Below, in pieces: positions 51,461-55,771 of a stretch of 64,000 nucleotides of DNA. A program made the position numbers and the translations under genes. The notes beneath the pieces are model-generated. The model was not told the DNA's origin. It saw only the letters and a program-made list of their open reading frames with translations, and searched no databases. Position 1 is the stretch's first letter; every line of letters starts with the position of its first letter. Source of the DNA: Clostridia bacterium (lineage in GTDB: Bacteria > Bacillota > DSM-521 > Neomoorellales > Neomoorellaceae); assembly GCA_030445865.1 (NCBI GenBank), contig JASUSV010000006.1:1-64000 (forward strand), written 5' to 3'.

Positions 51461-51473
51461 TTTACTTGCAAAA

Positions 51474-51562
51474 CCCCACTTCCCTTCGCTGGTATTACCC
51501 AGATCAGGTTCCAAGGGTTGGCCTAATATTACGCCTCTCAGCCCTTTTCAGGGCACCCCCGG
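51474..51562 (-). promoter_or_regulatory. TPP riboswitch (THI element)
   Basis: The minus strand contains the invariant thiamine pyrophosphate aptamer blocks: GGGTGCCC...GGGCTGAGAGG, ACCCTTGGAACCTGATCTGG, and GTAATACCAGCGAAGGGAAG. Together with the following terminator it turns off thiC when thiamine pyrophosphate is plentiful. Confidence 0.97.
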
Positions 51563-51681
51563 GGCAAACAAATATTTTTTATAGTATTACTATATTCTCG
51601 CTCGCAACTGGAATTCCTGCTTGACGGGAAAAATAAAGTGTAATACGATTTTAATATCGATAAAGCGAAAGGGAGTTAACT

Positions 51682-52262: not shown

Positions 52263-52844
52263 CTATCTTCCCGGCCTTATCACCCCATCCTCGGTAACGA
52301 TCAGGTCCACCGGGAGGTCATGGGCGTCAGGATAAGTTGTTTCAACGACCTGGAAGCCGAAGGCCAGGGCAACCGCACGCGCGCCGGGTTTAAGCTTGCT
52401 CAGGAAATTATCGTAATAGCCGGCACCGTAGCCCAGGCGGTTTCCGCGGCGGTCGAAAGCCACGCCGGGTACAACGACCAAGTCGATAGTCTCGGGAGCC
52501 AGGGGCCGAAAAGTATCCGGCCGGGGTTCCAGGATACCCCAGGTGCCGGGGGAAAGGTCTCCCGGAAAAGACAAAACCTCCGAAGGAACCAGCTCCCGAC
52601 GCCCTTTCACGCATACAGGTACCGCCACCCTTTTACCTTCCTTAAGAGCGGCGCAGATCAAACCGCTCGTTTCCACTTCTTTACGAAAGGCCACATAAAG
52701 CATCACCACTGCCGCCTCCCGCCATTCCGGCAGGGCCTGTAGATGGGCGGCAATTAGCCTGCTTTTGGCGTCCACTTCTTCGACAGGGAGGGCGCTGCGC
52801 ACAGCCAGTATTTTTTGACGCAATTCTTTTTTTAAATTATCCAC
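52263..52844 (-). CDS. 5-formyltetrahydrofolate cyclo-ligase
   Basis: 193 residues. It shows KKELRQKILAVRSALP, VVMLYVAFRKEVET, and the C-terminal DLVVVPGVAFDRRGNRLGYGAGYYDNFLSK with the ATP loop. It converts 5-formyl-THF to 5,10-methenyl-THF with ATP, supporting one-carbon metabolism. The GTG start (52842-52844) lies within the first DnaA box of the next region, and no clear ribosome site is seen. Confidence 0.93.
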   Translation of the reverse strand: MDNLKKELRQKILAVRSALPVEEVDAKSRLIAAHLQALPEWREAAVVMLYVAFRKEVETSGLICAALKEGKRVAVPVCVKGRRELVPSEVLSFPGDLSPGTWGILEPRPDTFRPLAPETIDLVVVPGVAFDRRGNRLGYGAGYYDNFLSKLKPGARAVALAFGFQVVETTYPDAHDLPVDLIVTEDGVIRPGR

Positions 52845-52995
52845 AGATTATACACATCCTGAAGCCTACGGCGTCAACGGAAAAAACTACTTATCCACAA
52901 AACATTCCCGCCAACGGCCGTAGGCTAATTTTTCTTTTCCACATAAAGAATGGCCGATTTTGGCCTTAGTCACAGGTTTATACACATTTTCCACA
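52837..52995 (+). other. cluster of six DnaA-box-like 9-mers
   Basis: Within 160 bases, all in one orientation: TTATCCACA at 52837 and 52891 (perfect), TTATACACA at 52848 and 52978, and TTTTCCACA at 52935 and 52987 (one change each). A 10-bp inverted repeat, AGCCTACGGC (52863) and GCCGTAGGCT (52917), encloses the second perfect box. dnaA, rpmH and gyrB are not nearby, so this is more likely a DnaA titration or regulatory site than the chromosome origin. Confidence 0.7.
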
Positions 52996-53029
52996 ACATT
53001 TAATTTAAGGTTAACATAAAACTTAAGTC

Positions 53030-53107
53030 CTAAAAAAAATTTGGGACACCAAAAAATCAAGGTAGGGCAAGGCAAAAAATTTGTCCAGTCCCAAAAAAAT
53101 TTGGGAC
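53030..53107. repeat. AT-rich direct repeats with palindrome
   Basis: AAAAAAATTTGGGAC occurs twice, ending near 53047 and 53105. The second copy is preceded by CCC and forms a palindrome, CCCAAAAAAATTTGGG. GGTAGGGCAAGGC (53063) resembles GGTTAGGGCAGGC (53123). The block lies directly after the DnaA boxes and could be easily melted DNA or the terminator region of tsaD. Confidence 0.5.
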
Positions 53108-53109
53108 CA

Positions 53110-54153
53110 TTACCTCAAAGGTAGGTTAGGGCAGGCGTCCAAGCTCAAAGGTGCAAAATCGCGGCGCAAGTACTGGTAATAAGCCGCGCACCCGATCATG
53201 GCGGCATTATCCGTACAAAAAGCAGGCCGGGGGAAAAGGGCCATCAGCCCCTCTTCTTCGGCCCCGGCGGCCAGCGCCCGGCGCAACGCTGTATTGGCCG
53301 CCACTCCGCCTACCGCCAGGATGGTTTTAACGCCGTACTCTTTAGCCGCCCTGACAGTCTTGGTGACCAATACCTCTACTACCGCCGCCTGAAACCCGGC
53401 AGCAATATCGGCCAGCCTGCCTTCTTCCTCTCCAGACTGTTGCTTGAGATAATTGAGCACAGCGGTTTTGACCCCGCTAAAGCTAAAATCAAAACTGCCT
53501 TCTTCTAGCCAGGCCCGCGGAAAGTGCAGGGCATGGGGATCTCCTGCCGCTGCCAGCCTCTCCAGATGCGGCCCGCCGGGGTAGCCTAGCCCCAGAGCGC
53601 GGGCCACTTTATCAAAGGCTTCGCCAGCAGCATCGTCCCGACTGCTTCCCAGGATTCGCCGCCGGACGTGATCCCGGAGGTAAATTAAATGGGTATGCCC
53701 GCCGGACACTACCAGGCACACGGCCGGCAGTTCCAGACCAGGATACTCCAGGAAGGCAGCATAAATATGGCCCAGGAGGTGGTGCACTCCTATCAGGGGC
53801 CGGCGTAGGGCGTAGGCCACAGCTTTGGCATAAGATAAACCCACCAGCAGGGCGCCGGCGAGGCCGGGGCCATAAGTTACGGCCACGCCGTCCAAATCTT
53901 TAAAACCCAGGCCCGCCTCCCCAAGGGCCGCCTCGACTACCGGCACAATAGCTTCCAGGTGGCGCCGGGAAGCGATTTCCGGCACGACGCCGCCGAAACG
54001 CCGGTGCGCCGCCACCTGGGAGGCAATTACATTGGACCGCACTTCCCTACCGTTTACCACGACGGCCGCCGCCGTCTCATCGCAGGAAGTCTCGATTGCC
54101 AGTAAAGCGCAATCTCCGGTCAAAGACAAACTCCCTTCTTTACCATTCTTCAC
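53110..54153 (-). CDS. tsaD: tRNA N6-threonylcarbamoyladenosine synthase subunit TsaD
   Basis: 347 residues. Metal and ATP motifs: AIETSCDETAAAVV at the start, HHLLGHIYA near 125, VSGGHTHLIYL, FSFSGVKTAVLNYL and VGGVAANTALRRAL. With TsaB and TsaE, encoded next to it, it puts the threonylcarbamoyl group on A37 of tRNAs reading ANN codons. The first dozen residues vary in this family, so a TTG start a few codons later is possible. Confidence 0.97.
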   Translation of the reverse strand: MKNGKEGSLSLTGDCALLAIETSCDETAAAVVVNGREVRSNVIASQVAAHRRFGGVVPEIASRRHLEAIVPVVEAALGEAGLGFKDLDGVAVTYGPGLAGALLVGLSYAKAVAYALRRPLIGVHHLLGHIYAAFLEYPGLELPAVCLVVSGGHTHLIYLRDHVRRRILGSSRDDAAGEAFDKVARALGLGYPGGPHLERLAAAGDPHALHFPRAWLEEGSFDFSFSGVKTAVLNYLKQQSGEEEGRLADIAAGFQAAVVEVLVTKTVRAAKEYGVKTILAVGGVAANTALRRALAAGAEEEGLMALFPRPAFCTDNAAMIGCAAYYQYLRRDFAPLSLDACPNLPLR

Positions 54154-54592
54154 CGCCTAACTCAGGACCGTAAAGATGCTTCCACATGATAATGGCATCT
54201 TCACGCGTATCGTTATAATAACCTTTACGTACTCCCGCCCGTGTAAAACCCGCTCGCTCGTAAAGTTTCTGGGCGGCTATATTGGAGACGCGTACCTCTA
54301 GGGTAACGCGGTCGGCTCCCAAGCGCGCGGCCTCGTGCAACAGAAAATCCAGGAGCAATTTCCCCAGGCCACGACCACGCCAATGGGGGTGAACGGCGAT
54401 GTTGGTGATGTGCACTTCATCTAAAATCAACCACAAACCGGCATATCCGCATACCTTTCCCTCCACCAAACAGACATAATAATAAGCATAATTATTATTA
54501 TAGATCTCGTTTAGAAAAGCGCTGCGCTCCCAGGGCGAAGGAAATGAAACCCGCTCGATTTCCAGTACCTGATCCAGGTGTTCGGCAATCAT
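54140..54592 (-). CDS. rimI: ribosomal-protein-alanine N-acetyltransferase RimI-like
   Basis: 150 residues from the ATG at 54592, which overlaps the tsaB stop (ATGA). It has the GNAT pattern IERVSFPSPWERSAFLNEI, then VHITNIAVHPHWRGRGLGKLLLDFLL (acetyl-CoA loop RGRGLG), and LYERAGFTRAGVRKGYY. It acetylates a ribosomal protein N-terminus. The fold would usually start a few residues earlier (VQIEPM lies in frame), so the true start could be a noncanonical codon. Confidence 0.9.
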   Translation of the reverse strand: MIAEHLDQVLEIERVSFPSPWERSAFLNEIYNNNYAYYYVCLVEGKVCGYAGLWLILDEVHITNIAVHPHWRGRGLGKLLLDFLLHEAARLGADRVTLEVRVSNIAAQKLYERAGFTRAGVRKGYYNDTREDAIIMWKHLYGPELGGEEW

Positions 54593-55293
54593 GGGCTCGA
54601 TCTGGACGTTAATAAATTCGCTTCCGCTGCCGACGGGCGCAGGTATAGTAGCTTGATACGGGAAGGGTCGTCTGTCCGGCCGGCCCGTAACTGCTTTAGC
54701 CCTAAACAGGCCACCTGAGCCGCCCGAGGCAAGTTGTTTGATAGCTCTACGAAGTGTGCCCGGGAACCCAGTTGCTGCCAGACATCCCGATAGAGTCCGA
54801 CGGCATCGCCCAAAAAACTTACCGGCCCGCTGAAGGAAGCTAATTGGCCCACTAAAGCAGCCGGCGCGATGGCCTGATAAGAGGTCAGGCGACACAATTT
54901 TCCCTCCTGCCAACAATAAACTGCGGCGTAAACTTCCTGGCGGCGGGCATTGATTACCGGGCAAATTAATCCGGGCCAGCCCCACACGTTGCTTGCCAGG
55001 GCATCTAAACTCGGTATGCCCACCAGGGGCTTCCCGGTAACCTGGGCCAGGCCCTTGGCCGTAGCCAGGCCTATGCGTAATCCGGTAAAAGAACCCGGAC
55101 CAATGGAGACGGCCAACCCGTCCAAGTCATCGAAAGTCAACCCGGCTCTGGACAAGAGCTCATCTAGTAGGGGCAGCAGGCGGCGGGAATGATCCTGGGG
55201 CGTGTTGAAGAAAAGCTCGGCAATAAGGTTATTTTCGTCTACCAGAGCCACGCCCGCAACCCTGGTAGCGCTGTCAAGGCCCAAAACGCGCAT
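54589..55293 (-). CDS. tsaB: tRNA threonylcarbamoyladenosine biosynthesis protein TsaB
   Basis: 234 residues. It begins MRVLGLDSATRVAGVAL and has LAVSIGPGSFTGLRIGLATAKGLAQ and PVINARRQEVYAAVY, all typical of TsaB, an ASKHA-fold partner of TsaD without its own catalytic site. It overlaps tsaE by 20 bases and rimI by four, so the cluster is translated together. Confidence 0.96.
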   Translation of the reverse strand: MRVLGLDSATRVAGVALVDENNLIAELFFNTPQDHSRRLLPLLDELLSRAGLTFDDLDGLAVSIGPGSFTGLRIGLATAKGLAQVTGKPLVGIPSLDALASNVWGWPGLICPVINARRQEVYAAVYCWQEGKLCRLTSYQAIAPAALVGQLASFSGPVSFLGDAVGLYRDVWQQLGSRAHFVELSNNLPRAAQVACLGLKQLRAGRTDDPSRIKLLYLRPSAAEANLLTSRSSP

Positions 55294-55771
55294 CCCGCTT
55301 CAACTCCGCTACCATCTCCTTAAAGCGCCCCCCTAGAGGCAACAACCGCGCTTCTCTACCGGCCCCAAACTGACTTAAAGCTATCTCCAACCTCTCAGGG
55401 GGTAAAACGGCGGGAAATTTGTCGCCCCATTCGATAGCCACAATACCCATACCGCATATGTATTCCTCCAGGCCCAGGGCCTCAAGCTCTTCTTCCTCGT
55501 CTAGGCGGTAGAGGTCGATATGATAAAAAGGGTAACGGCCCTGGTATTCTTGAACTAAAGTAAATGTAGGGCTGGTCACCGGCCCGTCCACACCCAATCC
55601 CGCGGCCAATCCCTGAACCAGGGTGGTTTTACCCATCCCCAGCTCGCCTTTTAAAACAAGCACATCGCCGGGCTTCAAATGGTTGGCCAGCGCCCGGCCT
55701 AAAGCCCTGGTGGCGGCTGCATCCGGTAAGAACACGCGCAAAAAGTCAAACCTCCCGCCTGCTCCACTCAA
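55274..55771 (-). CDS. tsaE: tRNA threonylcarbamoyladenosine biosynthesis ATPase TsaE
   Basis: 165 residues. The P-loop GELGMGKTTLVQG is near residue 41; VTSPTFTLVQEYQGRYPFYHIDLYRL near 70-95 and AIEWGDKF near 120 are family motifs. It drives ATP-dependent turnover of the TsaBD complex. A C-terminal extension of about 20 basic residues is slightly longer than usual. Confidence 0.96.
   Translation of the reverse strand: MSGAGGRFDFLRVFLPDAAATRALGRALANHLKPGDVLVLKGELGMGKTTLVQGLAAGLGVDGPVTSPTFTLVQEYQGRYPFYHIDLYRLDEEEELEALGLEEYICGMGIVAIEWGDKFPAVLPPERLEIALSQFGAGREARLLPLGGRFKEMVAELKRDARFGP

Follow-up and report, generated by a model that had tools for sequence, protein, structure and literature searches.

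Why should a dense run of same-direction DnaA boxes lie behind tsaD in a Clostridia bacterium, away from dnaA, and what would it do there? The window, i.e., the whole 64,000-nucleotide stretch that was analyzed, corresponds to contig C89; the assembly totals 2.08 Mb and has 90 contigs, and its gene content suggests a Moorella-like organism. A motif scan of the region 52837–52995 returned six plus-strand DnaA boxes, two of them perfect and four with one mismatch. This is what the earlier note had described, except that its count was too low: a seventh, weak and degenerate box with two mismatches, TTAGTCACA at 52966, had been overlooked in the first reading. All seven boxes share one direction, antisense to tsaD on the minus strand, and counted from the tsaD side their offsets are 0, 9, 21, 52, 96, 139 and 150. 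The array occupies the gap between tsaD and the gene for 5-formyltetrahydrofolate cyclo-ligase (5-FCL), with its last box just entering the start of the latter. The features of the locus are as follows.

52263–52844, minus strand: 5-FCL (PF01812), on the far side of the array, GTG start at 52844
52837–52845, plus strand: DnaA box 7, TTATCCACA, perfect; its reverse complement contains the 5-FCL GTG start codon
52848–52856, plus strand: DnaA box 6, TTATACACA
52863–52872 and 52917–52926, no strand: inverted repeat, arms AGCCTACGGC and GCCGTAGGCT, flanking box 5
52891–52899, plus strand: DnaA box 5, TTATCCACA, perfect
52935–52943, plus strand: DnaA box 4, TTTTCCACA, third member of the 0/9/51–54 core common with Bacillaceae-type loci
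52966–52974, plus strand: DnaA box 3, TTAGTCACA, degenerate; offset kept in 12 of 12 family arrays directly after tsaD
52978–52986, plus strand: DnaA box 2, TTATACACA, abutting box 1
52987–52995, plus strand: DnaA box 1, TTTTCCACA, the box closest to tsaD
about 53027–53047 and 53088–53107, no strand: two hairpin-like elements of the form GTCCCAAA..TTTGGGAC, the second being GTCCCAAAAAAATTTGGGAC
53110–54153, minus strand: tsaD (gcp; PF00814), the gene preceding the array in most genomes
54140–55771, minus strand: rimI-like acetyltransferase gene, tsaB and tsaE, upstream of tsaD

We compared the array with chance expectation. Under a local first-order model, in which the surrounding 500 bp were resampled 20,000 times, 0.10 boxes occurred on average and never more than three, and at the window's own background rate the probability of at least six boxes in 160 bp is about 5e-15. 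The whole 2.08 Mb genome contains 51 TTWTMCACA sites, six of them in the array, compared with 35 in all for the reversed control pattern. Moreover, the array was the sole place with two such sites within 30 bp, i.e., this genome-wide pair scan found no second DnaA-box cluster. Because the resamples never exceeded three boxes and no second close pair occurs in the genome, we exclude chance as the source of the array. It is also the densest DnaA-box site found in this genome, richer than the dnaA locus.

Two further sequence elements had been pointed out in the earlier note. The inverted repeat is present, with its arms flanking the box at 52891; in an alignment of relatives it was absent in that form from their arrays. 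The "AT-rich repeats" are present as the two hairpin-like elements, with nothing that marks them as origin 13-mers. Both sit between the array and the tsaD stop, and they are perhaps the end of the tsaD transcript.

Possible loss of the boxes in close relatives was checked in family f1 (18 genomes), and the array proved to be kept there and far beyond. Its core (offsets 0/9/21) occurs in 17 of the 18 genomes, directly after tsaD in 12 and displaced in five. A 30-bp core search returned one exact match in each of the 17, a weaker second match in G002 and none for the control; by this search, the core is missing from one family genome, of 1.4 Mb. Array loss in six family genomes was rejected for five of them, in which the core was found displaced. 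The displaced arrays lie 1.8, 2.1, 2.8, 20.0 and 20.4 kb from tsaD behind insertions, with their boxes intact, and still adjoin 5-FCL in the three genomes whose genes were read. DNA inserted between tsaD and the array carries a phage integrase gene in G012 and a transposase-like gene in G005.

Box offsets of family relatives, counted from the tsaD-nearest box, are 0, 9, 21, 53, 98, 141 and 153, and here too every box is antisense to tsaD; of the twelve directly following arrays, three retain the tsaD-side part only. A perfect consensus never occurs at the third box, which on the tsaD strand reads TGTGACTAA or TGTGATTAA, or in one case TGTGGTTAA, and is present in all 12 directly following arrays. 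Across 14 family arrays, conservation was 90% in box columns versus 63% in spacers (Mann–Whitney p 7e-15). As a side observation, insertions have repeatedly entered the family's tsaD–array gap (L264, L262, G004), where a phage integrase gene, a YhgA-like transposase gene and a 20 kb block were seen.

The phylum was sampled evenly with 119 genomes, in which 110 tsaD 3′ flanks were read. An average of 3.08 boxes falls within the first 400 bp after tsaD, and 60% of genomes have at least three there, whereas control stretches 900–1300 bp downstream of tsaD hold 0.21 (0.9% with at least three) and shuffles 0.10 (0%). Of the 339 boxes in the first 400 bp, 309 run antisense to tsaD (309:30, about ten to one). 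With arrays up to about 1.7 kb from tsaD included, 71 of the 110 genomes have one; in the remaining 39 (about 35%) no array was found behind tsaD, and it is therefore dispensable or replaced there. A set of 80 named Bacillaceae-type loci, gathered with a B. subtilis TsaD query sequence, gave a mean of 6.15 boxes, 94% with at least three, and a ratio of 439:53 antisense to tsaD.

Also the geometry recurs. The 0/9/51–54 core was found in 29 of 70 phylum, 11 of 12 family and 50 of 76 Bacillaceae-type arrays, compared with maxima of 4, 2 and 6, respectively, under random placement; these rows are not all independent, related genomes having common ancestry. Abutting box dimers, TTWTNCACATTATCCACA, number 80 in the 119 whole genomes, and 41 of them, every one antisense, follow tsaD at a distance of up to 3 kb downstream. 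Seven Bacillus-type genomes together had six such dimers, four of them at tsaD. Reversed-pattern controls in the dimer and core searches yielded 0–1 per search. Abutting dimers were also seen beside comFC-like genes (L271, L272, L274, L278, L279, L280), called from Pribosyltran plus a double zinc ribbon in L271 and L278 and judged by eye in the remaining loci, and beside a zinc-ribbon protein gene in L268 and L277, with hpf adjoining in L268. It is possible that these comFC-like/hpf dimers, found in several families, are a second conserved DnaA site.

On a TsaD tree, array presence and absence need at least 23 changes. The tree itself is neutral on their direction; by the common orientation and core spacing, we favor one old origin with many losses over several gains. 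A tie between array presence and distance from the origin was rejected, as tsaD lies at 10–11% from dnaA in genomes with (G106) and without (G029, G072) an array. An initial claim for two phyla was withdrawn: the sample centered on B. spizizenii consisted of the same genomes as that centered on G000, and we therefore claim conservation for one phylum only.

Among known systems, gcp/ydiF of B. subtilis is reportedly one of the six clusters that Okumura deleted jointly in 2012. In vitro, this cluster of 10 sites is among the eight strongest DnaA sites, with Kd values of 0.15 and 0.33 μM for ATP-DnaA and ADP-DnaA, respectively, and a 16-fold higher DNA recovery with ATP-DnaA at 55 nM (PMC4447404). 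Deletion of the six extra-origin clusters together leads to early initiation (PMC5295017, PMC13220808), a phenotype that is strong only once all are removed (PMC5295017). Our array resembles the gcp(tsaD)–ydiF cluster in lying directly 3′ of tsaD and, as judged from relatives, on the origin side of the chromosome, and in having several boxes, mostly antisense to tsaD, with an abutting 9-bp pair and then a box about 43 bp on. In B. spizizenii (L074), for example, boxes follow the tsaD stop at 133, 142, 185 and 239. The present locus has three features of such a tsaD-linked cluster: a position directly downstream of tsaD, at least three boxes, above chance, and offsets 0/9/52 within the 0/9/51–54 geometry. 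In contrast to the seven one-direction boxes found here with 5-FCL beyond, B. subtilis relatives have one opposite box and other outer spacings, with ydiF beyond in B. subtilis. B. subtilis moreover has six clusters outside oriC, whereas the array is the only one found in this genome.

Escherichia coli datA has its essential boxes in one direction, in non-coding DNA downstream of genes and near oriC, and is copied soon after initiation (PMC5742627). The array is like datA in its same-direction boxes in a non-coding stretch downstream of genes, all seven being plus-strand boxes of the tsaD–5-FCL gap with only box 7 reaching just into 5-FCL. However, datA requires IHF, which is absent from B. 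subtilis (PMC13220808), and is located at glyVXY/queG. DARS1 and DARS2 of E. coli are likewise small clusters of DnaA boxes in non-coding DNA that act at a distance from oriC, but they serve ADP-DnaA reactivation, with DARS2 needing IHF and Fis, and nothing here points there. In E. coli K-12 (L260, 4389000–4399000), tsaE, likewise a t6A gene, is about 2.6 kb away from datA in the glyY–queG gap; this closeness is probably a coincidence, and we did not use it as evidence.

We consider it likely that the array is a conserved non-origin, origin-proximal DnaA-binding locus that restrains initiation by datA-like logic, as the counterpart of the B. subtilis gcp(tsaD)–ydiF cluster. A titration or datA-like role had been suggested in the earlier note and is the best-supported reading, with the array kept in the family and beyond and the skew-defined origin elsewhere. 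Judged by its sequence conservation, the array is a real and evidently selected element; DnaA binding and the titration step are inferred for this organism. DnaA, preferably ATP-DnaA, would occupy the seven same-direction boxes in a head-to-tail row. Replication would reach the array fairly soon after each initiation, and the doubled dose of the array would draw off, or help inactivate, DnaA, which would restrain a second start; dose-dependent DnaA sequestration on the head-to-tail array is the likeliest mechanism. In 20 complete relatives, from which the dnaA position was read, tsaD lies on the origin side at 10–36% of the chromosome from dnaA (median 16%), so the array should double fairly early, like E. 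coli datA (PMC5742627). This origin proximity may merely reflect tsaD gene order. The array, its conservation, orientation, spacing, tsaD linkage and place relative to dnaA in relatives come from this analysis, and high-affinity, ATP-preferring binding and early initiation after six-cluster deletion are borrowed from B. subtilis.

Many boxes beside an AT-rich stretch could also mean that the array is or was oriC, or forms part of a two-part origin, and the dnaA locus of family f1 has very few consensus DnaA boxes, which sets the family apart from most other complete genomes in the phylum sample. In this genome, there is one perfect box only in the dnaA–dnaN gap and none within two mismatches upstream of dnaA, and the family origin may use unusual boxes. 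However, the cumulative GC skew has its minimum at C26:128263, the dnaN/dnaA junction, on the contig that carries dnaA. On one side of it the skew is for the most part near −0.10, on the other it ranges from +0.10 to +0.29, and the genes change direction sharply at the same place. Within the window, no skew flip was found at the array, which does not show the skew minimum and gene divergence of an oriC, and the distance of tsaD from dnaA in the complete relatives speaks against an origin as well. The skew analysis that the earlier note had called for thus puts the real origin at dnaA/dnaN on C26, and we rejected the array as replication origin, a reading that we find most improbable. It is just as hard to believe that the array arose from sequence composition or a repeat element and has no DnaA role. 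DnaA binding at the array is predicted from sequence, which would leave room for this, but the much stronger conservation of box columns than of spacers, the near-zero downstream controls and shuffles, the nearly empty reversed-pattern searches and the phylum-wide tsaD linkage argue against it.

Array-bound DnaA could instead repress or tune the next gene, 5-FCL, and thereby couple folate (one-carbon) metabolism to replication, as the earlier note had raised. Box 7 does overlap the 5-FCL GTG start as described there, box 6 reads TGTGTATAA on the 5-FCL strand, near a −10 hexamer, the array has stayed beside 5-FCL in the three displaced cases with genes read, and other B. subtilis genes are repressed or activated by DnaA (PMC4447404). 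In contrast, the gene beyond the array changes, from 5-FCL here and in most of genus g4 to a radical-SAM-like gene in genera g6 and g7 and the convergent ydiF in B. subtilis (PMC4447404), whereas the array behind tsaD, its orientation and its core spacing stay constant; the array is therefore not tied to one downstream promoter. Also, a promoter scan of 5-FCL gave no match at the scan threshold and nothing above chance, and in most genus-g4 relatives 5-FCL starts well past the array. We hence rejected folate-gene regulation as the purpose of the array and regard transcriptional control as unlikely. DnaA might additionally affect 5-FCL through the box 7 overlap, which is local to the lineage and could be a side effect. 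Far less credible still is a DARS-like reactivation, in which the array would promote ADP release from DnaA and not titration or inactivation. A compact cluster with abutting boxes would suit this, and no regulator of the DnaA ADP/ATP state is known in B. subtilis (PMC13220808); however, the B. subtilis counterpart favors ATP-DnaA (PMC4447404), and cluster removal there makes initiation early, not late (PMC5295017).

To return to the origin-proximal, initiation-restraining locus, it is possible that the array stimulates DnaA ATP hydrolysis, since the conserved spacing suggests a defined complex that plain titration would not need. A bolder version, which we regard as rather doubtful, assumes one ancestral phylum-wide element, present in the common ancestor of family f1 and Bacillaceae or even earlier, whose fixed head-to-tail geometry would assemble a defined ATP-DnaA complex stimulating ATP hydrolysis, i.e., a Gram-positive datA equivalent. 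If true, this would fill a gap, the DnaA nucleotide-state regulator of Bacillus.

In B. subtilis, the extra-origin DnaA clusters are described as six sites whose phenotype is a joint one. Should the tsaD cluster be a single element phylum-wide, with orientation and core spacing selected and kept despite insertions, it would be the one to study: the array geometry would predict a specific DnaA assembly, and titration versus nucleotide-state control would become directly testable. In the open-access literature, with subscription papers outside the scope, no paper joined "DnaA box" with tsaD, and only a PLoS Genetics paper of 2015 named gcp/ydiF as a DnaA site. The tsaD-linked DnaA-box cluster is already known as a kind; its breadth and core geometry were not found described in the searchable literature.

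Two minor observations concern neighboring subjects. Box-poor dnaA loci of family f1 were seen in L245, L249, L252, L253, L255 and L256, and in G000 the GC skew still flips there. In the window, an ordinary TPP riboswitch lies at 51461–51570 on the minus strand (74.2 bits), upstream of a thiC-like gene.
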